A stretch of 44,300 nucleotides of DNA, from contig JACAAZ010000017.1 in NCBI GenBank assembly GCA_013376995.1, positions 57,376 through 101,675 of the forward strand, written 5' to 3'. The notes under the pieces were generated by a model. That model saw only the letters and a list, made by a program, of their open reading frames with translations. It ran no database searches and was not told the DNA's origin. This DNA comes from Bacteroidota bacterium (GTDB lineage: Bacteria; Bacteroidota; Bacteroidia; Bacteroidales; UBA4417). Position numbers and translations under genes: made by a program. Each line of letters opens with the position of its first letter. Position 1 is the first letter of the stretch. This document shows, one piece after another, positions 5,090-16,782 of the stretch.

Positions 5090-5428
5090 ATGGAAAATAC
5101 ACGGCAGCAAAAAGTAACCCGCCTGATCCAAAAGGATCTGGGAGAAATATTTCAAAGCCTCAGCAGGGATCTTTTCAGCGGGAACCTGATCACTGTCACG
5201 AAGGTCGTTGTGGCCCCGGACCTGACTTTGGCAAGGGTTCACCTGAGCCTTTTCGGGAAGACGGAAAAAGCAGATTTGTTAAAGGATATTTATACCCATA
5301 AAAAAGCAATCCGCCTTCAACTTGGTAACCGGATCCATAACCAGGTAAGGCAAATCCCAGACCTGGAGTTTTATATTGACGACTCGCTCGACTACATTGA
5401 AAATATTGAGAATCTGCTGAAAGGCTAA
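5090..5428 (+). CDS. rbfA: 30S ribosome-binding factor A
   Basis: A 112-residue single-domain KH-like protein that binds the 30S subunit during 16S rRNA 5'-end maturation and cold adaptation. The N-terminus (RQQKVTRLIQKDLGEIF) and the central strand-loop (VTKVVVAPDLTLARVHLS) are characteristic of RbfA. So is the C-terminal LGNRIHNQVRQIPDLEFYID segment. Length is normal for Bacteroidota. In related genomes rbfA is commonly followed directly by a LolC/E-like permease gene. Here that partner lies 1.2 kb downstream, separated by a tandem repeat and a methyltransferase gene. Confidence 0.95.
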   Translation: MENTRQQKVTRLIQKDLGEIFQSLSRDLFSGNLITVTKVVVAPDLTLARVHLSLFGKTEKADLLKDIYTHKKAIRLQLGNRIHNQVRQIPDLEFYIDDSLDYIENIENLLKG

Positions 5429-5765: not shown

Positions 5766-6575
5766 ATGCAATATGACCCAATTAAACGTTCATTAGGCTC
5801 TGTATTTAACAGCACGCCTTTTTTGCGTAAAGTCTTCTATAAATTACTCGATATACTGCTCCTCCGCTCATGGCATGTTCGGAAAGAGCTAAAAGAATGG
5901 AACAAGGTTTCGCCTGCCGGCGCTATGATCCTGGATGCAGGTTCCGGCTTCGGGCAATACGATTTTTACCTTTCATCCTTAAATCCTTCCTGGAAAATAA
6001 AAGGTGTTGATGTAAAAGAAGAACAGATTGCTGACTGCAATGCATTTTTCAAATCGATAGGCCGCGAAAATGTAAAATTTGAATTTGCTGACCTGACCCG
6101 TTTTAATGAGGCCAGCACTTATGACCTCATTCTTTCCGTAGATGTTATGGAGCATATCCTGGAAGACGTGCTTGTTTTTGAGAATTTCCATAAAGCATTG
6201 AAACCCGGAGGAATGGCTCTGATTTCTACGCCTAGTGACCAGGGTGGCAGCGATGTTCATGATCATGACGAAGAAGACTCATTCATCGAAGAACACGTCC
6301 GCGATGGATATAACATCCAGGAGATCCAGGATAAGTTGAAAAAAGCAGGGTTTAGCCGCACTGAAGCCCGCTACCAATATGGAAAACCGGGACAGCGAGC
6401 ATGGAGGATCTCCATGAAATATCCCATCCTGATGCTTGGAAGATCAAAGCTCTTCTTTATCATCCTTCCATTCTATTACCTCTTTGTTCTGCCGGTCAGC
6501 ATGATACTGAACCGGAAAGATGTAAACACTCAGCACCTGAGCGGAACAGGCCTGGTAGTGAAAGCCTGGAAATAG
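5766..6575 (+). CDS. Class I SAM-dependent methyltransferase
   Basis: A 269-residue Rossmann-fold methyltransferase. The SAM-binding glycine motif is ILDAGSGFG near residue 55. The acidic ribose-binding end of strand 2 is KGVDVKEEQ, and the post-motif VDVMEHILED plus LKPGGMALISTPS complete the fold. A hydrophobic stretch near the C-terminus (FFIILPFYYLFVLPVSMIL) could anchor it to the membrane, as in methyltransferases acting on lipid or glycan intermediates. It sits between rbfA and the LolC-like gene, interrupting a pairing that is usually close, so it may be an insertion. No substrate can be named. Confidence 0.85.
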   Translation: MQYDPIKRSLGSVFNSTPFLRKVFYKLLDILLLRSWHVRKELKEWNKVSPAGAMILDAGSGFGQYDFYLSSLNPSWKIKGVDVKEEQIADCNAFFKSIGRENVKFEFADLTRFNEASTYDLILSVDVMEHILEDVLVFENFHKALKPGGMALISTPSDQGGSDVHDHDEEDSFIEEHVRDGYNIQEIQDKLKKAGFSRTEARYQYGKPGQRAWRISMKYPILMLGRSKLFFIILPFYYLFVLPVSMILNRKDVNTQHLSGTGLVVKAWK

Positions 6576-6669: not shown

Positions 6670-7899
6670 TTGAATTTCCCGTTTTACATAGCGCGCAGGT
6701 ACCTGGTCTCAAAAAAGACCCATAATATCATCAATATCATTTCCGGGATTTCGGTAATTGGTGTTATGGTAGGAACCATGGCCCTGATTGTTGTGCTAAG
6801 TGTGTTCAACGGATTCGAAAAGGCAGTTATTTCCATGTTCAACGTTTTCGATCCGGATCTGCAAATCTCTCTTGCCGAGGGTAAAACTTTCCACCAGTCT
6901 GAACTGCCCTCTGATAAAATAAGCCATTTACCGGGGGTGGTCAGGTATACGCAGGTACTTGAAGAAAACGGATTGCTCCGGTACAAGGACAAGCAATACC
7001 TTGCTGTAATAAAAGGGGTGAGTGCCGGTTATGAAAAAAACAGCCCGCTGGATACCCTGATTGTGGAAGGGAAAATGGTGCTGCAGGCAGATAGTTTTGA
7101 CTTTGCTATCCCCGGGTTTGGAATAGCATATTACCTGGGGGTGCAGTTGGATGACCCGGAAAACCTGATTTCCATTTATGTTCCTGACCGTACCAAACGC
7201 CTGAATGTCCTTTCTGAAAACACCCTGCGCTCAGAAACCATTATGCCTGCAGGTATATTTTCTGTCCAGCAGGATTTTGACAACAAATACATGTTCGTCC
7301 CCCTCAGGTTTGCAAGAAGGTTGTTGAACTATTCAGATGAAATCTCATCAGCAGAGATTTGGCTGGCGCCGGGAAGCAATGCAGAGGAGACGCAGCAAAC
7401 CATCGAGAAATGGGCAGGAAAGAAGTTTGTCGTAAAAAACCGGCTTCAGCAACAGGATATTCTCTACAAAACCATGAAGTCGGAGAAATGGGCTGTTTTC
7501 CTGATTCTGACATTTATCCTTATCATTGCCACCTTCAATGTTATTGGATCTATAACCATGCTGATCCTCGACAAGCGCAGGGATATCCATGTGCTGGGGA
7601 GTATGGGAGCCAGCCAGAAGCTGATCCGCCGGATCTTTTTCACTGAAGGAGCACTGATTATTATTAGCGGAGCTTTGTCTGGATCAGTCCTGGGTTTCAT
7701 TATTTGCTGGGTTCAGAAACATTTCGAACTGATTAAGCTTGGGAATGGAGGATCCTTTATATTGAATGCCTACCCTGTTGACATGAAAGTAACTGACTTT
7801 ATCATGGTTATAATTACGGTTACTTTTATCGGGCTCGCAGCGTGCTGGCTTCCTGTCAGGCGCATGAGCAGGCGGTTTGAAAAAACCAATTCGAAGTAA
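6670..7899 (+). CDS. LolC/LolE-like ABC transporter permease (FtsX/MacB fold)
   Basis: A 409-residue inner-membrane permease of the lipoprotein-releasing family, which moves outer-membrane lipoproteins from the inner membrane to a carrier using a separate ATPase. It has one N-terminal transmembrane segment (about 20-45), a large periplasmic domain (about 46-270) and three C-terminal segments. The cytoplasmic coupling motif LDKRRDIHVLGSMGAS precedes the third segment, as in LolC/E. The start is a TTG at 6670, giving MNFPFYIARRYL, the standard N-terminus of this family. The matching ATPase (LolD) is not in this window. The specific LolC versus LolE identity is not resolved. Confidence 0.88.
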   Translation: MNFPFYIARRYLVSKKTHNIINIISGISVIGVMVGTMALIVVLSVFNGFEKAVISMFNVFDPDLQISLAEGKTFHQSELPSDKISHLPGVVRYTQVLEENGLLRYKDKQYLAVIKGVSAGYEKNSPLDTLIVEGKMVLQADSFDFAIPGFGIAYYLGVQLDDPENLISIYVPDRTKRLNVLSENTLRSETIMPAGIFSVQQDFDNKYMFVPLRFARRLLNYSDEISSAEIWLAPGSNAEETQQTIEKWAGKKFVVKNRLQQQDILYKTMKSEKWAVFLILTFILIIATFNVIGSITMLILDKRRDIHVLGSMGASQKLIRRIFFTEGALIIISGALSGSVLGFIICWVQKHFELIKLGNGGSFILNAYPVDMKVTDFIMVIITVTFIGLAACWLPVRRMSRRFEKTNSK

Positions 7900-8962: not shown

Positions 8963-8970
8963 TAACTTTG
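8963..8970 (+). promoter_or_regulatory. Bacteroidota -7 box TAACTTTG before the protease pair
   Basis: TAACTTTG ends 36 bases before the ATG of the Kgp-type protease. It lies in a very AT-rich 260-base gap. No similar box is seen in the 30-base gap between the two protease genes, which suggests one transcript for both. Confidence 0.5.
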
Positions 8971-9006: not shown

Positions 9007-12000
9007 ATGAAAATCACCAGCTTACTCCGTTCACAAGTACTACTTTCGATAATTGCATTAGCTGTTTCTTCACAGATCCATGCTATTGATTATGTTCAAC
9101 TTAAGCCAGGAGCTGAAAACAGGCTAGATGTTACTGAAAGCTCATACCTGCATCTGCAGGTTGCAAACACTTTCAGCACATTTGGCTACCTGAACCAGGA
9201 AACCACAAAAGGCTCTTTTGCACAAATCTATGCTAAAGGTTATTCAAAAAGCACTCAGGTTGGTGATCCTGAATTGCCGGTAATGAGCAGGTTGATAGAG
9301 GTCCCGGTTGATGCTGTTCCTGAAATAAGGATAGTGAGTTATACGATAACTGATTATGATCTCAGCAATTACGGTGTTACCGCCAAAATATTTCCTTTGC
9401 AGCCCCCGCATGCTAAAAATGCTTCTTCATCTTCTGAATTTGCCTATAACACAGCCTCCTACCAGCAGAATAAATTTTTAGGAGGAGAACTCGCTAAGGT
9501 TGAAATCCAGGGATTCCTTAGGGGAGTAAGGCTTGCTAACCTGATCATTTCACCTGTTCAATATAATCCTGTTACCAATACCCTCAGGGTTTATGAAAAC
9601 CTGGTGGTTGATGTCAGGTTTACCGGTGCAAATATTGCCAAAACCAGGGAAATGCGCTCAAAATTTGATTCGCCTTATTTCCACAGCATATTCAATAAGG
9701 TTATTAACCTTCAGCCTGTTGAAACCGATCGCGATACCATCATGAAAATGCCGGTAAAATATGTAATCGTTTCTCCTCCTATGTTTCATGATGCATTGCA
9801 GCCCCTGGTTCAATGGAAAACCCGCAAAGGATTCACCGTAGTTCAGGCATATACTGATAACCCTGCCGTCGGAACAACATTTAACTCGATCAAAGCCTAC
9901 CTGCAAGGACTCTATACAAACAGTACCGCCATGGACCCTGCTCCTTCATTCGTGCTTTTTGTTGGTGATGTTGACCAGGTTCCTTCCTACAATTGTGGCA
10001 GCCATGTGAGCGATCTCTATTATTGCGAATATTCAGGCGATTTCCTCCCGGAAGTATACTATGGCAGGTTTTCCGCAACCAATCTCACTGAATTGCAGCC
10101 GCAGATCAACAAAACGCTGGAGTATGAACAATACCAGATGCCGGATCCTTCGTACCTGAATGAATGTGTGATGGTTGCCGGTGCTGATGCAAGCTATGGC
10201 CCTGTTTGGGGAAATGGTCAGATCAATTATGGCACAAATTACTATTTCAATCCTGATCATGGCCTTACATCCCATACCTACCTGCAGCCTGAACCTGCCG
10301 GTGGCAATTATGCAACGAATATTCATACCAATGTTAGCAATGGGGTTTGCTATGCCAATTACACTGCTCACGGAAGTGAGGATGGTTGGGCAGATCCTTC
10401 CTTCACCATAGCTGACGTGGCCAATTTGCAAAATGCCCATAAATACCCCCTTATGGTTGGGAATTGCTGCCTGACCAACCGTTTCGATGTAAACTGTTTC
10501 GGCGAAGCTCTTCTCCGCGCCCAGGATAAAGGTGCCCTGGCATACATTGGCGGTACCAATGTTAGCTATTGGGATGAAGACTTTTACTGGGGCGTAGGTG
10601 TCGGGCCAATTGTTGTAACCCCGACCTATGAAGAGAACGGCCTTGGGGCATATGACCGCACATTCCACGATCATGGTGAACCCATGGAAGAATGGTACAG
10701 CACTACGGCACAGATGATATTTGCCGGAAACCTTGCAGTGCAGGAATCAACTTCAAGCATGAAACAGTATTATTGGGAAATTTATGCACTGATGGGCGAC
10801 CCTTCACTTATGGTTTACTTCTCGGTGCCACCCGCAATGACTGTCGATTATACTCCATTACTTCCTTTAGGCTCCCCCATTTTCAGCGTTCATACTGAAC
10901 CTTATGCCTATGTTGCAATTTCTAAAAACAACGTATTGCATGGTGCGGTTGAAGCTGACGCTACAGGCCTTGCCAATATCCAGCTGATGCCATTTACCGA
11001 ACCAGGTTATGCAACAGTAGTCATCACCAAACAGAACCGCCAGCCTTATATTGATTCCGTTATGGTCGCTTCACCTGACGGGCCTTACCTGGTGCTGGAC
11101 AACTACCTTATCAAAGACCAGGGCGGTAACAACAACCAGGTTCCTGAGTTTGGTGAACCGCTGACCATGGATCTCAGCATGAAGAACTTCGGGAATAGTG
11201 ATGCTATAAACACATTGTCAACTCTTTCAACCACCGATCCATATGTTTCCGTAACCGCTGCCACCCATACATGGCCTGTCATTACAAGCAATGGAAGCGC
11301 TTCAGCTACTGACGCCTTCATAATCCAGGCTCATGACTATGTCCCGGATCTACATACTGCCAATTTCACTTTGACTTCGGTTACCGACACCAATACTTTC
11401 TCTTCAGGTTTCAATATCCAGTTCCTGGCTCCTGCCCTCTCAGCAGGTATTTTCACCTTAGATGAAGCAACAGGTGGAAATGGGAACGGGCAGCTCGATC
11501 CGGGAGAAACTATTTATGTTACAATTCCAACAAGCAATACCGGGCATTGTACCTCTTCCGCACTCTCTGCACAGTTATTCGTGTTCGGTGATTACATTAC
11601 CATTAACACGCCGGCTCAGTCACTTCCTGCCCTGGCTCCGGGTGGTACCGTTGAATCTACTTTCAGTTTCACCATCAGCCCCGACGCTCCCCTTGGAACA
11701 GAATTTTCACTTTACTTCACGGTAACCGCAGGCCCATACAATGCTGTATCCAGCCTTTTCCCAACTGTTGGGCCCCAGATAGAAGACTATGAAACCAATA
11801 ATTTCAGCAGGTATAGCTGGAGGATGACAGGAAACCAGGGATGGAAAATCAGCCCGACCATCAAATCGCAGGGAAATTTTGGTTCACAATCCGGCACCCT
11901 CGGTAATTCACAACGCTCAGAAATGTACCTTGACGTAATTGTTCTCTCCTCAGATACCATCTCTTTCTACCGGAAGGTTTCTTCAGAATCTGGCTATGAC

Positions 12001-12930
12001 TACCTGAAGTTCTACCTCGATGGGGTTGAAATGGGTAAATGGTCAGGAACTATGGATTGGGCAAGGGTTAGTTACCCGGTACTGGCAGGACCACACCGTT
12101 TTAGCTGGGCTTACGAAACAGATGAGTCTACTTTGTCTGGACAAAATGCCGGGTGGATAGACTATATTGTTTTCCCTCCTTTCAGCGAAAATCCTACAGG
12201 TCCTCTTGCCATCAATATGCTTGCAATTCCCCCTGTTGTTTGCCCGGGTAGTTCCTCACAATTGTATGCTTTCGCAACGGGAGGGAGCGGCAACTATGCC
12301 TATAGCTGGTCGCCAGCTGCTACACTCAACAACGACAATACATTCAACCCGGTTGCTACTCCTGTTGAAAACACGTTCTACCATGTGATCATCACCTCCG
12401 GATTATTTACATCAAGCAGTGATATTGAAGTTACCTTGGGCGAAATTCCTTCCACACCAGTGGTAACCCTTAATGGTGACCATTTTGAATCATCGGCAGC
12501 AACCGGAAACCAATGGTATAACAGCCAGGGTATAATAGCAGGAGCTACAGATCAGATCTATAAGCCAGAGCACACGGATTCATATTACACCATTGTTACC
12601 AATCAGAATGGATGCTCATCCCAGCCTTCTGACCAAATTTACTATGGATTCGTTGGAGTCAAAGGTGAAAGCAACCAGGGATTTCACATCTATCCGAATC
12701 CTTTCGAAGATAAATTCTTCCTTGATTATACACTTAAAACAGCATCATCAGTGAAAATTGCCATCTATGATGCGATTGGAAACGAAGCCATGTCCATGAA
12801 CCTGGGCCAGAAAGCAGCAGGGACTTACAAGCTTAAAATCGACGGAAGCAAGCTAGCCACAGGTATTTACTACTGCAAACTATACACGGGTAACGAAGTC
12901 CTTGTGACCAAGGTGATCCGAAACAACTAA
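9007..12930 (+). CDS. Lysine-gingipain-like (Kgp-type) C25 cysteine protease with T9SS sorting domain
   Basis: A 1307-residue secreted protease. It has a signal peptide (about 1-26), an N-terminal propeptide (to about 245) and a C25 catalytic domain (about 250-620). The catalytic His is H455 in NYTAHGSE and the catalytic Cys is C488 in VGNCCLTNRF. Their 33-residue spacing equals that of gingipains. The segments VGNCC, CFGEALLRAQDKGA and SYWDEDFYW follow P. gingivalis Kgp closely as I recall it. T453 and D525 fall where Kgp has its lysine-pocket residues Thr442 and Asp516. An Ig-like domain (SYVAISKNNV-like stretch), Asn/Gly-rich beta domains, a MAM/jelly-roll-like domain (about 925-1065) and a PKD-like domain follow. 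The end (IYPNPFEDKFFLDY to KVIRNN) is a T9SS type A sorting domain. Lysine specificity is an inference. Confidence 0.9.
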   Translation: MKITSLLRSQVLLSIIALAVSSQIHAIDYVQLKPGAENRLDVTESSYLHLQVANTFSTFGYLNQETTKGSFAQIYAKGYSKSTQVGDPELPVMSRLIEVPVDAVPEIRIVSYTITDYDLSNYGVTAKIFPLQPPHAKNASSSSEFAYNTASYQQNKFLGGELAKVEIQGFLRGVRLANLIISPVQYNPVTNTLRVYENLVVDVRFTGANIAKTREMRSKFDSPYFHSIFNKVINLQPVETDRDTIMKMPVKYVIVSPPMFHDALQPLVQWKTRKGFTVVQAYTDNPAVGTTFNSIKAYLQGLYTNSTAMDPAPSFVLFVGDVDQVPSYNCGSHVSDLYYCEYSGDFLPEVYYGRFSATNLTELQPQINKTLEYEQYQMPDPSYLNECVMVAGADASYGPVWGNGQINYGTNYYFNPDHGLTSHTYLQPEPAGGNYATNIHTNVSNGVCYANYTAHGSEDGWADPSFTIADVANLQNAHKYPLMVGNCCLTNRFDVNCFGEALLRAQDKGALAYIGGTNVSYWDEDFYWGVGVGPIVVTPTYEENGLGAYDRTFHDHGEPMEEWYSTTAQMIFAGNLAVQESTSSMKQYYWEIYALMGDPSLMVYFSVPPAMTVDYTPLLPLGSPIFSVHTEPYAYVAISKNNVLHGAVEADATGLANIQLMPFTEPGYATVVITKQNRQPYIDSVMVASPDGPYLVLDNYLIKDQGGNNNQVPEFGEPLTMDLSMKNFGNSDAINTLSTLSTTDPYVSVTAATHTWPVITSNGSASATDAFIIQAHDYVPDLHTANFTLTSVTDTNTFSSGFNIQFLAPALSAGIFTLDEATGGNGNGQLDPGETIYVTIPTSNTGHCTSSALSAQLFVFGDYITINTPAQSLPALAPGGTVESTFSFTISPDAPLGTEFSLYFTVTAGPYNAVSSLFPTVGPQIEDYETNNFSRYSWRMTGNQGWKISPTIKSQGNFGSQSGTLGNSQRSEMYLDVIVLSSDTISFYRKVSSESGYDYLKFYLDGVEMGKWSGTMDWARVSYPVLAGPHRFSWAYETDESTLSGQNAGWIDYIVFPPFSENPTGPLAINMLAIPPVVCPGSSSQLYAFATGGSGNYAYSWSPAATLNNDNTFNPVATPVENTFYHVIITSGLFTSSSDIEVTLGEIPSTPVVTLNGDHFESSAATGNQWYNSQGIIAGATDQIYKPEHTDSYYTIVTNQNGCSSQPSDQIYYGFVGVKGESNQGFHIYPNPFEDKFFLDYTLKTASSVKIAIYDAIGNEAMSMNLGQKAAGTYKLKIDGSKLATGIYYCKLYTGNEVLVTKVIRNN

Positions 12931-12960
12931 TACCATCAAACCGATAAAACAAACCATTCA

Positions 12961-15900
12961 ATGAAGAAAAATCTGCTACTGATCCTGGCAATGATTGTCA
13001 TGACCAATCTGTTTGCCGGGCAATGGACATCCATACGTTCCCAGGTTCCAACCCAAGCCAGGACTGAACTGATCTCTTCCGACATCAGCACCTCCATTAT
13101 TCATTTTTCGCTGGATGGTTATTTCCTGAATCCTGTCAATACGCCACATGGCACGGAATACACTGTTTCTGTTGACAACAGCACTCATATCCTGCAGAAA
13201 GGTGCGCCGGATCTTCCCAAGCTTACAGCATCCGTTATTATCCCGGATATGGCTTTGATGAACCTGGAAGTGGTTTCTTCATCGTATACGGACTTTGAAA
13301 ATGTAAGTATTGCCCCTTCAAAGGGAAACCTTATGCGGGATATTGATCCTTCAACCATACCTTTTGAGTATGGCAGGGCCTATTCACAGGATGCATTCTT
13401 CCCAACCTCATCAGCAGAACTCCGTGATCCTTTTATTCTAAGGGATTACCGGGGACAGACTATCATAGCAAATCCATTTGTTTATAATCCTGTTACGAGG
13501 ATTCTAAGAGTTTACTCTGATATTACAGTCAGGGTATTCCAATCAGGTACAAGTCAATTCAATGCTTTCAACAGGTCATCGATGCCGGGAAGAATAGATC
13601 ATGATTTCGGACAAGTATATTCCCATCAGTTCCTCAATACGGTCCAGGCTGATTATACACCTGTGAATGATTATGGAAGAATGCTCATTATTTGTTACGG
13701 ACAGTTTATGCAGGCTATGCAACCCTTCGTAAACTGGAAAAATGCAATGGGTATTCAGACTGAGATCGTTGATGTAGCGACTGTCGGAAACAGTGCTGAT
13801 GCAATCAAGGCTTATGTAGCCAATTATTACAATACCCATGGCTTGACATTCCTGATGCTTATTGGTGATGCTCCACAAATACCTACAAATACTACCGGAA
13901 GCCTCGGAGGCCCTTCGGACAATGCCTATGGCTACCTTGTAGGAAATGATCATTATCCAGACATTTTCGTGGGCAGGTTTTCGGCCGAGACAGTTGACCA
14001 TGTGAACACCATGGTTCAACGAACTCTTGAATATGAGCAAAACCCGGTTTTGACGCCCAACTGGATGCCAAGTGGCATTGGAATAGGATCCGACCAGGGA
14101 CCAGGTGATGATAATGAATACGACTACCAGCATATCAGGAATATCAGGACCAAGCTGATGGGCTTTACCTATACTGATGTTGCTGAATTGTATGACGGTT
14201 CGCAAGGTGGGGAAGATGCCTCCGGGAATCCAACTCCTGCTATGGTTTCAGCCGAGATCAATGCAGGTGCATCCATTATTAACTATTGCGGACATGGAAG
14301 CCAGACCTCATGGGGGACTACAGGCTTTTCAAATTCCAATGTCAACCAGCTCAGCAACAATCACATGTGGCCCTTCATTTTAAGTGTGGCCTGTGTAAAT
14401 GGTGATTTTGTCTCCGGAACCTGCTTTGCAGAAGCCTGGCTCAGGGCTAAAAACGCTGAAGGCCCAACAGGCGCTGTTGCAACGGTAATGTCAACTATCA
14501 ATCAAAGCTGGGATCCACCTATGGATGGACAAGATGAAATGGACGACTTGCTGGTTGGCACCTATCCCGACAATATTAAACGCACTTTTGGCGGGCTGAC
14601 GATGAATGGCTGCTGCCAGATGAATGATGATTTTGGAACTGATGGAGCCAACATGACCGATACCTGGACCATATTTGGCGATCCATCCCTGTTAGTGAGA
14701 ACTGCCATGCCAACCGCAATGGTGGTTAGTCATGAAGCTCAAGTATTTCTTGGGACTTCAAGCTTCACAGTAAATGTTGATACAGAGGGAGCTCTTGTTG
14801 GTTTAACTGTGAACGGCCAATTTCTCGGATCTGCTTTTGTCATAAACGGAAGTGCAACTATTACCTTCCCTGCATTCCAGACACCGGATTCACTGCATAT
14901 TGTTGTAACAGCATTTAACAAGATCCCCTATCAAGCGGACATAGCCATTATCCCGAACAATGGCCCTTACCTGATCTATAATAACAACCTGATTCACGAT
15001 GCTGCCTATAACAATAACGGGCTTGCAGATTATGGAGAAACGGTAACTCTTGACCTGGCACTTACCAATATTGGAGTTCTTCCTGCAAATAATGTATCTG
15101 TAACAATCCAATCCGCTGATCCTTTCATTACGATCACTGATGCTACGGAAAATTACTCCGCAATTGCTGCAGGGGATACAACAGTTGTTACCGATGGATT
15201 TGCCTTCGAAATCTCAGCAGCAATTCCTGATCAGCATACGATCCCGTTCCAGTATTCAGCCACCAATGGCACAGATACCTGGACAGGTAGTTTTACTATT
15301 ACAGCACATGCCGGGGTACTTAAATATTCATCCTTTACCATTTCTGATCCTAACGGGAATAACAATGGCAAGGCTGATCCCGGCGAAACATTTGACCTGC
15401 TTGTCAAGATCACAAATAGCGGTACTGCAGATCTAACCAATGTAACCGGGCAGATCTCCTTCAATGATCCTTATGTTAGCCTTCTTTCCTCCCCGGCACA
15501 GGCTTATGACAATATTGCCCCTGGCATAACCGTGCAGCGCTCTTTTACCATAACAGCAGATCCTTTAACTCCAAGTGGTCATGTGGTTCCAGCTGCATTC
15601 CTGATGACCGCCGACCTGGGATTAAACCTCACCTCCGCATTGAACCTGGTAATTGGGCAAATACCGGTTGCAGTCATTGATCTTGATGGAAACCTGAATT
15701 CAGGGCCGTTAATGCTCAATGCGCTCAATGCCAACAATGTATTTGCTGAATATAAGAACGTATTGCCTGCAGATCTTTCAGGATACAAAACCTTGTTTGT
15801 ATGCCTGGGAACCAATGACAAAAAACATGTTTTAACCAATCCTGAAGGGCAACAACTAACTGATTTCCTGAATAACGGAGGTCGTTTGTACATGGAAGGT

Positions 15901-16782
15901 GGTGACACATGGTATTATGACCCTAAAACCCCTGTTCATCCTTTATTCAAAGCTAGTGGCGTTACCGATGGAGGCAATGACCTTTCCATTGAAAATGGTA
16001 TGCCTGGCACCTTTGCTGACAGTTTGTCCTTCGCTTTCACAGGTGATAATGAATATATTGATCATATTGTAGCCCTTACCCCTGCCTTCAGCCTTTTCAA
16101 AAATGCCACACCCGCATATTATTCAGCAGTAGCTTACGACCAGGGAACCTACAAAACCATCGCCTCTTCCTTTGAGTTTGGTGGACTGAGCAATGCTGCA
16201 TTCCCTTCTACAAGGAATGAATATATGAGAAGGATCATCGAATTCTTCGGAATCCTTTCTACACAATTAACCGCCAACTTCATGGGAAACCCTGTGAATA
16301 TATGTGATGGCGGTTCAGTAACATTCCAGGATTTCTCGACCGGTGGGGCTATTTCCTGGAACTGGACTTTCCCTGGTGGAGTACCCGGTTCGAGCAATGA
16401 GGCAGAACCTACTGTGGTTTATAACAATCCCGGCCTGTATGATGTTACACTGATCATTTCTAATGGCACCACGACAGATACACTCATCAAAACAGCCTAT
16501 GTCTGGGTTGAATACTGTACAGGAGTCAAAACTGAAAACGCAGGGAATTTAACAATTTACCCGAATCCTGCTTCCGCATCAGCAACCATCAACTTCGGCG
16601 CAATGAAAGGGATGGGAGTATTAACTGTCGCAGATGCAACCGGAAGGATTGTCTATACCGATAGGAGCGTTTCTCTTGAGTCTCCTTATGTAATGAAATT
16701 GAATGGCATCCCGGCAGGCATATATTTCCTGACAACATCCACTTCAACAGGAAGTTTTGTTGGCAAATTGGTTGTCAGGTAG
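12961..16782 (+). CDS. Arginine-gingipain-like (Rgp-type) C25 cysteine protease with PKD and T9SS sorting domains
   Basis: A 1273-residue secreted protease whose start lies 30 bases after the stop of the Kgp-type gene. It has a signal peptide (about 1-20), a propeptide to about 231, then a catalytic domain beginning YTPVNDYGRM, very close to the start of mature RgpB as I recall it. The catalytic pair is H445 (CGHGSQTSWGT) and C478 (VACVNGDF). D388 (NEYDYQH) and W517 (STINQSW) fall at the RgpB arginine-pocket positions Asp163 and Trp284. DTWTIFGDPSLLVRT closes the domain. Two GNNNG-DxGE-type beta domains, a further alpha/beta-looking segment (about 900-1090), a PKD domain (about 1105-1185) and a T9SS type A tail (IYPNPASAS to KLVVR) follow. 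Residue 231, just before the catalytic domain, is Asp, whereas RgpB has Arg. Confidence 0.92.
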   Translation: MKKNLLLILAMIVMTNLFAGQWTSIRSQVPTQARTELISSDISTSIIHFSLDGYFLNPVNTPHGTEYTVSVDNSTHILQKGAPDLPKLTASVIIPDMALMNLEVVSSSYTDFENVSIAPSKGNLMRDIDPSTIPFEYGRAYSQDAFFPTSSAELRDPFILRDYRGQTIIANPFVYNPVTRILRVYSDITVRVFQSGTSQFNAFNRSSMPGRIDHDFGQVYSHQFLNTVQADYTPVNDYGRMLIICYGQFMQAMQPFVNWKNAMGIQTEIVDVATVGNSADAIKAYVANYYNTHGLTFLMLIGDAPQIPTNTTGSLGGPSDNAYGYLVGNDHYPDIFVGRFSAETVDHVNTMVQRTLEYEQNPVLTPNWMPSGIGIGSDQGPGDDNEYDYQHIRNIRTKLMGFTYTDVAELYDGSQGGEDASGNPTPAMVSAEINAGASIINYCGHGSQTSWGTTGFSNSNVNQLSNNHMWPFILSVACVNGDFVSGTCFAEAWLRAKNAEGPTGAVATVMSTINQSWDPPMDGQDEMDDLLVGTYPDNIKRTFGGLTMNGCCQMNDDFGTDGANMTDTWTIFGDPSLLVRTAMPTAMVVSHEAQVFLGTSSFTVNVDTEGALVGLTVNGQFLGSAFVINGSATITFPAFQTPDSLHIVVTAFNKIPYQADIAIIPNNGPYLIYNNNLIHDAAYNNNGLADYGETVTLDLALTNIGVLPANNVSVTIQSADPFITITDATENYSAIAAGDTTVVTDGFAFEISAAIPDQHTIPFQYSATNGTDTWTGSFTITAHAGVLKYSSFTISDPNGNNNGKADPGETFDLLVKITNSGTADLTNVTGQISFNDPYVSLLSSPAQAYDNIAPGITVQRSFTITADPLTPSGHVVPAAFLMTADLGLNLTSALNLVIGQIPVAVIDLDGNLNSGPLMLNALNANNVFAEYKNVLPADLSGYKTLFVCLGTNDKKHVLTNPEGQQLTDFLNNGGRLYMEGGDTWYYDPKTPVHPLFKASGVTDGGNDLSIENGMPGTFADSLSFAFTGDNEYIDHIVALTPAFSLFKNATPAYYSAVAYDQGTYKTIASSFEFGGLSNAAFPSTRNEYMRRIIEFFGILSTQLTANFMGNPVNICDGGSVTFQDFSTGGAISWNWTFPGGVPGSSNEAEPTVVYNNPGLYDVTLIISNGTTTDTLIKTAYVWVEYCTGVKTENAGNLTIYPNPASASATINFGAMKGMGVLTVADATGRIVYTDRSVSLESPYVMKLNGIPAGIYFLTTSTSTGSFVGKLVVR

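Follow-up and report, generated by a model that had tools for sequence, protein, structure and literature searches.

How two protease genes resembling the lysine and the arginine gingipain (Kgp and Rgp) of Porphyromonas gingivalis come to lie side by side in a Bacteroidota bacterium of the lineage UBA4417, and whether they belong together, is the question raised by the locus described here. The window, that is, the whole stretch of 44,300 nucleotides that was analysed (assembly GCA_013376995.1, contig JACAAZ010000017.1, positions 57,376 to 101,675 of the forward strand), carries on its plus strand two open reading frames, ORF1 (9007..12930, 1307 aa) and ORF2 (12961..16782, 1273 aa), which by open frame, Pfam, structure-sequence match and tree are precursors of a Kgp-type and an Rgp-type peptidase of family C25, respectively. 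It is likely, given the evidence presented below, that they encode a co-expressed pair of Lys- and Arg-specific endoproteases for extracellular protein breakdown, and that the gingipains of P. gingivalis are separated descendants of such an ancestral pair.

As enzymes, the gingipains are textbook knowledge. They are familiar chiefly as virulence factors of a single oral pathogen, while in the genomes compared here Kgp-type genes are common in the order Bacteroidales and often located beside an Rgp-type gene. Within the genus Porphyromonas, a genome comparison assigns gingipain genes to P. gingivalis and P. gulae only, and reports that even P. gulae is without Kgp (PMC4700951). The initial annotation had taken the kgp and rgp genes of P. 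gingivalis to be unlinked, which agrees with a paper where kgp is placed beside hagA and rgpA/rgpB are treated apart from that locus (PMC9328147).

Two gingipain-type precursors

Matches to Propeptide_C25, Peptidase_C25, Peptidase_C25_C and Por_Secre_tail lie above the curated Pfam cut-offs in both proteins, bearing out the domain order that had been read from the translations, while the putative signal peptides at the hydrophobic N-termini were judged by eye. ORF1 consists of a putative signal peptide of about 26 aa (9007..9084), a propeptide (9133..9630; residues 43-208, 67.8 bits), the catalytic domain (9760..10815; 208.6 bits), an Ig-like Peptidase_C25_C domain (10828..11061) and a type A sorting domain of the type IX secretion system (T9SS) (12688..12918; Por_Secre_tail 44.5 bits, NCBIfam TIGR04183 42.5 bits), with an additional Pfam match to CARDB. 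In ORF2 the propeptide (13069..13539; residues 37-193, 115.4 bits), the catalytic domain (13681..14691; 201.3 bits) and the Ig-like Peptidase_C25_C domain (14710..14943) are followed by a PKD domain (16306..16473) and a type A T9SS sorting domain (16555..16776; 35.4 and 34.3 bits, respectively). The stretch from 15763 to 16230 (ORF2 residues ~935-1090), 5' of the PKD domain, is without a Pfam match.

Compared with solved structures, ORF1 matches Kgp best (329 bits, against 95 bits for RgpB) and ORF2 matches RgpB best (350 bits, against 67 bits for Kgp). The identities of the catalytic domains follow the same pattern, with 42.0% for ORF1-Kgp and 42.3% for ORF2-RgpB as compared with 24.7% for ORF1-RgpB, 22.5% for ORF2-Kgp and 26.6% between ORF1 and ORF2, and so do the predicted folds, for which the best match of ORF1 is Kgp (4rbm, TMt 0.91 at 40% identity) and that of ORF2 is RgpB (1cvr, TMt 0.94 at 41% identity).

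For phylogenetic and residue comparisons 179 catalytic sequences were aligned, comprising 101 Kgp-type (K), 65 Rgp-type (R) and 13 other C25 rows, where K and R include the P. gingivalis references and duplicates of identical catalytic sequence had been removed before the pocket, pseudosubstrate and larger tree analyses. A quick tree of 82 rows, chosen from these by identity clustering, places ORF1 with Kgp and ORF2 with RgpB in two clades with Shimodaira-Hasegawa-like approximate likelihood ratio test (SH-aLRT) values of 97 and 99, respectively. The same two clades, each with a support of 100/99, are found in a more careful tree of 41 rows hand-picked from the 82, which keeps 16 of the 31 K, 18 of the 38 R and 7 of the 13 other rows and omits six of the others that have long branches. 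In this tree Kgp is nested within the ORF1 clade beside two genes of another genome, G018 (100/99). According to a warning of the tree program, branches in the group of other C25 rows are long; the grouping of K and R as sister clades reaches only 90/59. Bit scores, identities, trees and pocket residues thus agree with the initial view that one gene is lysine- and the other arginine-gingipain-like, and placement of both in a single non-gingipain C25 clade is contradicted.

Specificity pocket and propeptide pseudosubstrate

The P1 lysine is held in Kgp by D516, T442, N475 and W513 (PMC6426963), and the P1 arginine in RgpB by D163, G210, G212, Q282 and W284 (PMC4357240). ORF1 keeps equivalents of all four Lys-binding residues together with those of C477/H444/D388 (ORF1 D394, T453, H455, C488, W522 and D525 correspond to Kgp D388, T442, H444, C477, W513 and D516), and ORF2 keeps those of C244/H211 and of the five Arg-binding residues (ORF2 D388, H445, C478, Q515 and W517 correspond to RgpB D163, H211, C244, Q282 and W284). 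The active site of RgpB is described as a His/Cys dyad with the catalytic His printed as 221 (PMC4357240); in the alignment used here it is His211.

The Lys-binding Asp (Kgp D516) is present in 101/101 K, 0/65 R and 1/13 other C25 rows, and the Arg-binding Asp (RgpB D163) in 65/65 R, 0/101 K and 0/13 other rows, the classes having been set by profile score and not being wholly independent of the pocket columns. In the K rows N475, W513 and D388 are likewise invariant (101/101), and at T442 91 rows have Thr and the remaining 10 have Ser, while Q282 and G210 are found in all 65 R rows and W284 is Trp in 56 of them. The catalytic Cys and His are conserved throughout the 179 rows.

A separate indication comes from the propeptides. 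In RgpB, Arg126 of the propeptide occupies the S1 pocket (PMC4357240). For Kgp, a model assigns this part to Lys110 of the propeptide, and in P. gingivalis each of the two propeptides acts as an inhibitor only of the enzyme it belongs to (PMC3677877). By alignment, the inhibitory-loop Lys110 of Kgp corresponds to ORF1 Lys137 (9415..9417, plus strand) and the loop Arg126 of proRgpB to ORF2 Arg126 (13336..13338, plus strand). Enough sequence 5' of the catalytic domain is available, references apart, for 98 of the 100 K rows and 63 of the 64 R rows. Amongst these, the loop position is Lys in 98/98 K rows, the next Lys-richest column reaching 69/98, and Arg in 60/63 R rows, the three exceptions (L064, L065 and L067) residing on contigs other than that of the K gene. 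Pocket and pseudosubstrate, separate parts of the protein that change together by clade, thus indicate the same specificity, as expected for the paired trypsin-like Lys/Arg system that the initial annotation had proposed. The geometry of the loop is not claimed, because the ORF2 model has a predicted local distance difference test (pLDDT) value below 50 there (model residues 105-109).

As to maturation, simple scans for possible Rgp/Kgp-type cross-activation found Arg-Asp at 18, another Arg at 41 and neither at 40 of 99 K junctions, and Lys-Tyr at the junction in 5/63 R rows; the junction of P. gingivalis Kgp is Arg228-Asp.

The nine R rows with an altered W284 lid (Ser/Thr; L004 at G000:C40:216957-217967, in the genome of the window, and eight alike) are paralogs on contigs other than that of the K gene; in two of them, L064 and L067, the Arg of the propeptide loop is missing as well. 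An altered specificity of these paralogs is possible.

Spread and linkage of the pair

Two samples were used. The 79 named loci come from the best 80 of at least 544 relatives and lean towards window-like sequences, whereas 247 genomes were drawn evenly from the order and searched for Kgp-type genes at E 1e-70 or less and Rgp-type genes at 1e-75 or less. In the even sample 134/247 genomes have a Kgp-type gene, and 102 of these 134 (50/66 and 52/68) also have an Rgp-type gene. Linkage, defined as a distance of less than 7 kb, was assessed at 150 K and 145 R listed places covering 112 of the 134 K-positive genomes, and amongst these places there are 59 pairs in the order K-then-R, four in the order R-then-K and none on opposite strands. 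Of the 94 genomes for which both a K and an R place are listed, 55 have adjacent pairs, and these span 31 family codes. Fragmented assemblies hide some pairs, 14 listed minus-strand K genes lying within 3.5 kb of a contig start.

In the named loci, an R-class C25 frame follows within 500 bases on the same strand in 37 of the 58 K genes with at least 2.5 kb of downstream sequence; 35 of these frames are strong, those of L094 and L115 being weak. Immediately upstream of K, an R-class frame is found in 4/61 loci and is strong in two, L094 and L145. A single genome has up to four copies of K. The initial annotation would have been contradicted by a pair that is widespread and already described in relatives: widespread it is, but no description of a linked kgp-rgp pair was found among the open-access papers listed in literature searches (titles and openings of abstracts).

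Several loci depart from the common arrangement. Nine K genes (L078, L080, L085, L088, L091, L101, L107, L109 and L023) are followed by a divergent Rgp-type gene in place of the main type. Seven Kgp-type entries (L084, L101, L114, L127, L134, L140 and L142) belong to records that bear the names Flavobacteriales, Chlorobiota or Cloacimonadota (also Cloacimonas or Tenebribacter), reflecting either transfer or misbinning. In G018, the genome with the K genes closest to Kgp of P. gingivalis, four C25 genes form a K-R-K-R tandem (L157, 1846-18143, G018:C2); all four have dockerin I domains, three of the four are without a T9SS tail match, and the tandem adjoins a protein with dockerin, CUB and T9SS tail domains. 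A dockerin-bearing C25 peptidase has been reported in Cloacimonadota (PMC8542988), and the tandem might possibly represent a protease counterpart of the cellulosome.

Promoter pattern, co-divergence and genomic site

At the locus itself, ORF1 and ORF2 lie on the same strand, 30 bases apart (12931..12960), with neither a promoter box nor a listed terminator in the gap. TAnnTTTG, which we take to be the consensus of the Bacteroidota -7 box, occurs as TAACTTTG at 8963..8970 (plus strand), 36 bases 5' of ORF1, and is absent from the 149 bases 5' of ORF2. The close spacing and the promoter box before the first gene only, both noted from the outset, are thereby confirmed, and the usual features of an operon (same strand, short gap, box solely 5' of the first gene) are present. 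No matching -33 box was seen by eye, and neither a sigma-70 scan (21 sites versus 19.6 in shuffles) nor a terminator scan (7 versus 8.2) gave an excess.

The same pattern is repeated across the pairs. A TAnnTTTG box lies within 150 bases 5' of K in 24/33 pairs and within 150 bases 5' of R in 5/35 pairs, where shuffling the bases of the individual upstream stretches gives expectations of 3.2 and 2.4, respectively; the median gap from the K stop to the first R ATG is 38 bases (35 pairs). Pairwise distances of K and R were compared in 45 pairs, 36 from named loci and nine from genome-search loci, and for the pairs carrying the main R type (36 of the 45) they are correlated with r 0.90 (0/5000 permutations as high).

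Also the surroundings recur. Relatives of rbfA and lolE are found upstream in 18/27 linked loci with enough upstream sequence versus 3/25 other K loci. In the window the gene order is msbA (reverse), rbfA, methyltransferase, lolE, an ion channel gene and the ORF1-ORF2 pair, and the first four are the identified recurrent upstream neighbours of the pair. On the plus strand, rbfA lies at 5090..5428 (TIGR00082, 52.7 bits, cut-off 51.15), the S-adenosylmethionine methyltransferase, identified by Pfam and present in 13/27 linked loci, at 5766..6575, and the LolC/E-like FtsX permease at 6670..7899 (TIGR02212, 228 bits, below its cut-off of 362). The ion channel gene recurs in 0/52 loci, and further recurrent downstream clusters are found in 7-8 of 36 linked loci. 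Shared descent at one genomic site would explain the linkage better than repeated assembly.

The host assembly (5.0 Mb) has seven C25 matches, including two adjacent PorU sortase genes on another contig (L001 and L002, G000:C18:39794-44728), both above the curated cut-off, which fits a working T9SS, and an Rgp-type paralog on a third contig. The nearest named relatives are uncultured environmental Bacteroidales known from metagenome-assembled genomes, one of them labelled Lentimicrobiaceae.

Function and origin of the pair

Homology, pocket residues, pseudosubstrates, T9SS tails, linkage, gene order and promoter pattern can be read from the sequences directly, and from these we infer activity, specificity, a joint transcript, a nutritional role and the ancestral state. 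Both proteases would very probably be made from one transcript, and the zymogens would cross the inner membrane with the propeptide loop Lys (ORF1) or Arg (ORF2) sitting in the enzyme's own S1 pocket, to be exported by the T9SS and to lose the propeptide thereafter. Mature ORF1 would cut after Lys and ORF2 after Arg, together forming a two-enzyme extracellular substitute for trypsin, and the joint opening of detrital protein at both basic residues would feed the environmental Bacteroidales cell. In much of the order the pair would have been inherited as a unit, with rbfA-lolE often lying upstream, and the gingipains of P. gingivalis would be separated descendants of the K and R clades. The initial suggestion of a possibly ancestral arrangement is strengthened by the conservation in 31 families, the co-divergence of the main-type pairs and the shared genomic site, and the K-R pair probably is the ancestral arrangement.

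A number of observations weigh against this reading. The correlation of K and R distances falls to an r of only 0.26 over all 45 pairs (1/5000 permutations as high), because nine pairs carry the divergent R type, and correlated distances are also expected from a shared species tree or any two vertically inherited genes. A Kgp-type gene is present without an Rgp-type gene at the cut-off in 32/134 K-positive genomes, and an adjacent pair is missing from 39 of the 94 genomes that have both a K and an R entry, in some of them because of contig breaks. Two other R propeptide columns are as Arg-rich as the loop position (61/63 and 60/63), and in the K propeptides one column is Arg in 98/98 rows. The junction Arg of RgpB is Arg229 (PMC4357240), where ORF2 reads Asp-Tyr without a counterpart, and final processing must therefore differ from that of RgpB; by simple motif, the junction residue in the 63 R rows is Arg in 16, Asp in 14, Lys in 5 and one of seven or eight others in further rows, with no match in 20. 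The position of E152, which we take to be part of the RgpB active site, is Gln in ORF2 and in 43/65 R rows. In the 41-row tree RgpB lies inside the ORF2 clade without a firm position there, and a program warning points to an odd composition of the two P. gingivalis rows. Finally, the haemagglutinin-adhesin modules of Kgp and RgpA are absent from ORF1 and ORF2 by Pfam at E 0.001; these modules being a trait of P. gingivalis Kgp rather than of the enzyme class, ORF1 is filed as Kgp-type and not as Kgp.

With regard to function, the main rival holds that the pair serves to mature the cell's own surface proteins, such as pili or other T9SS cargo, by Lys and Arg cuts at defined sites, and not to digest protein. 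Gingipains process pilin subunits in P. gingivalis (PMC10202324), and both proteins have type A T9SS tails; however, there is no pilus or obvious substrate gene among the identified recurrent neighbours of the 36 linked loci, where several recurrent clusters were left unnamed, and two complementary specificities suit bulk degradation, so that we regard such a processing role as unlikely. Still less is to be said for the idea that the conserved Asp does not stand for trypsin-like cleavage and that one or both enzymes are dead, sortase-like or of other specificity, as in PorU, a C25 protein with another job. The change at E152 in ORF2 and the lost W284 lid of the paralog in the same genome would be in line with it, but the catalytic Cys and His are universally conserved, pocket and pseudosubstrate vary together by clade, and ORF1 and ORF2 score only 48.2 and 53.4 bits against the PorU model NF033707 with its cut-off of 420. 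An identity with PorU is rejected on these scores, and the wider idea is very improbable.

With regard to evolution, a recent tandem duplication or chance adjacency, having no bearing on expression or ancestry, might be suspected in a genome with plentiful C25 paralogs, but is rejected as scarcely credible given an ORF1-ORF2 identity of only 27%, their separate deep clades and the same gene order in 31 families. The main evolutionary rival is the sideways spread of the pair as a cassette, by which the arrangement would be common without being ancestral. It could account for the K genes on records from outside the order, the multiple K copies in some genomes and the nine pairs with a divergent R, yet it sits uneasily with the rbfA and lolE neighbourhood, which the window shares, and with the strong co-divergence of the main-type pairs, and it appears rather improbable. 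A more far-reaching version of the preferred reading, that of an ancestral co-expressed digestive pair, falls somewhat short of being probable: the ancestor shared by much of the order would have had a Lys/Arg gingipain operon at the rbfA-lolE site, the P. gingivalis gingipains would be its relics, which became separated, gained adhesins and turned to virulence, and Lys-specific gingipain activity would then have a major, largely unassayed share in protein breakdown in anoxic sediment and water.

The enzymes as such are of known kinds, and annotation databases may well list such homologues; what looks new is the conservation of the two genes as a pair, how far it extends and what it implies for the origin of gingipains. 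The pair offers an origin for the two gingipain specificities, the 98 Lys and 60 Arg pseudosubstrate loops form a natural series tracking the pocket, and a Lys-specific arm is predicted in protein degradation by such bacteria.

Comparison with known systems

With the T9SS sortase PorU, ORF1 and ORF2 share the C25 catalytic family and the secretion system, but they differ from it in their scores far below the PorU cut-off, and the PorU genes of this genome lie elsewhere. P. gingivalis Kgp (PDB 4RBM, 6I9A, 5MUN) shares with ORF1 the propeptide, the catalytic and Ig-like domains, the T9SS tail, the tested Lys-pocket residues, the pseudosubstrate Lys and the predicted fold, whereas ORF1 differs by its 42% identity, by having no adhesin modules by Pfam and by its linkage to an Rgp-type gene, kgp being located beside hagA in P. 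gingivalis (PMC9328147). RgpA and RgpB (PDB 1CVR, 4IEF) have in common with ORF2 the domain set, the D163/Q282/W284 pocket, the pseudosubstrate Arg126 and the predicted fold; unlike them, ORF2, again at 42% identity, has Gln at the E152 position, no junction Arg and a PKD domain, and is the second gene of a pair.

An ecological parallel is provided by an estuary sediment, where C25 genes make up 41-45% of the signal-peptide-bearing peptidase genes and Arg-ending substrates are among those cut fastest (PMC6752024). In the available text of that study gingipains are taken as Arg-preferring and are assigned Arg-ending substrates, the Lys type and pairing being unmentioned there, and its 'gingipain-like' peptidases bear the same family label as ORF1 and ORF2 and probably have the same ecological role.

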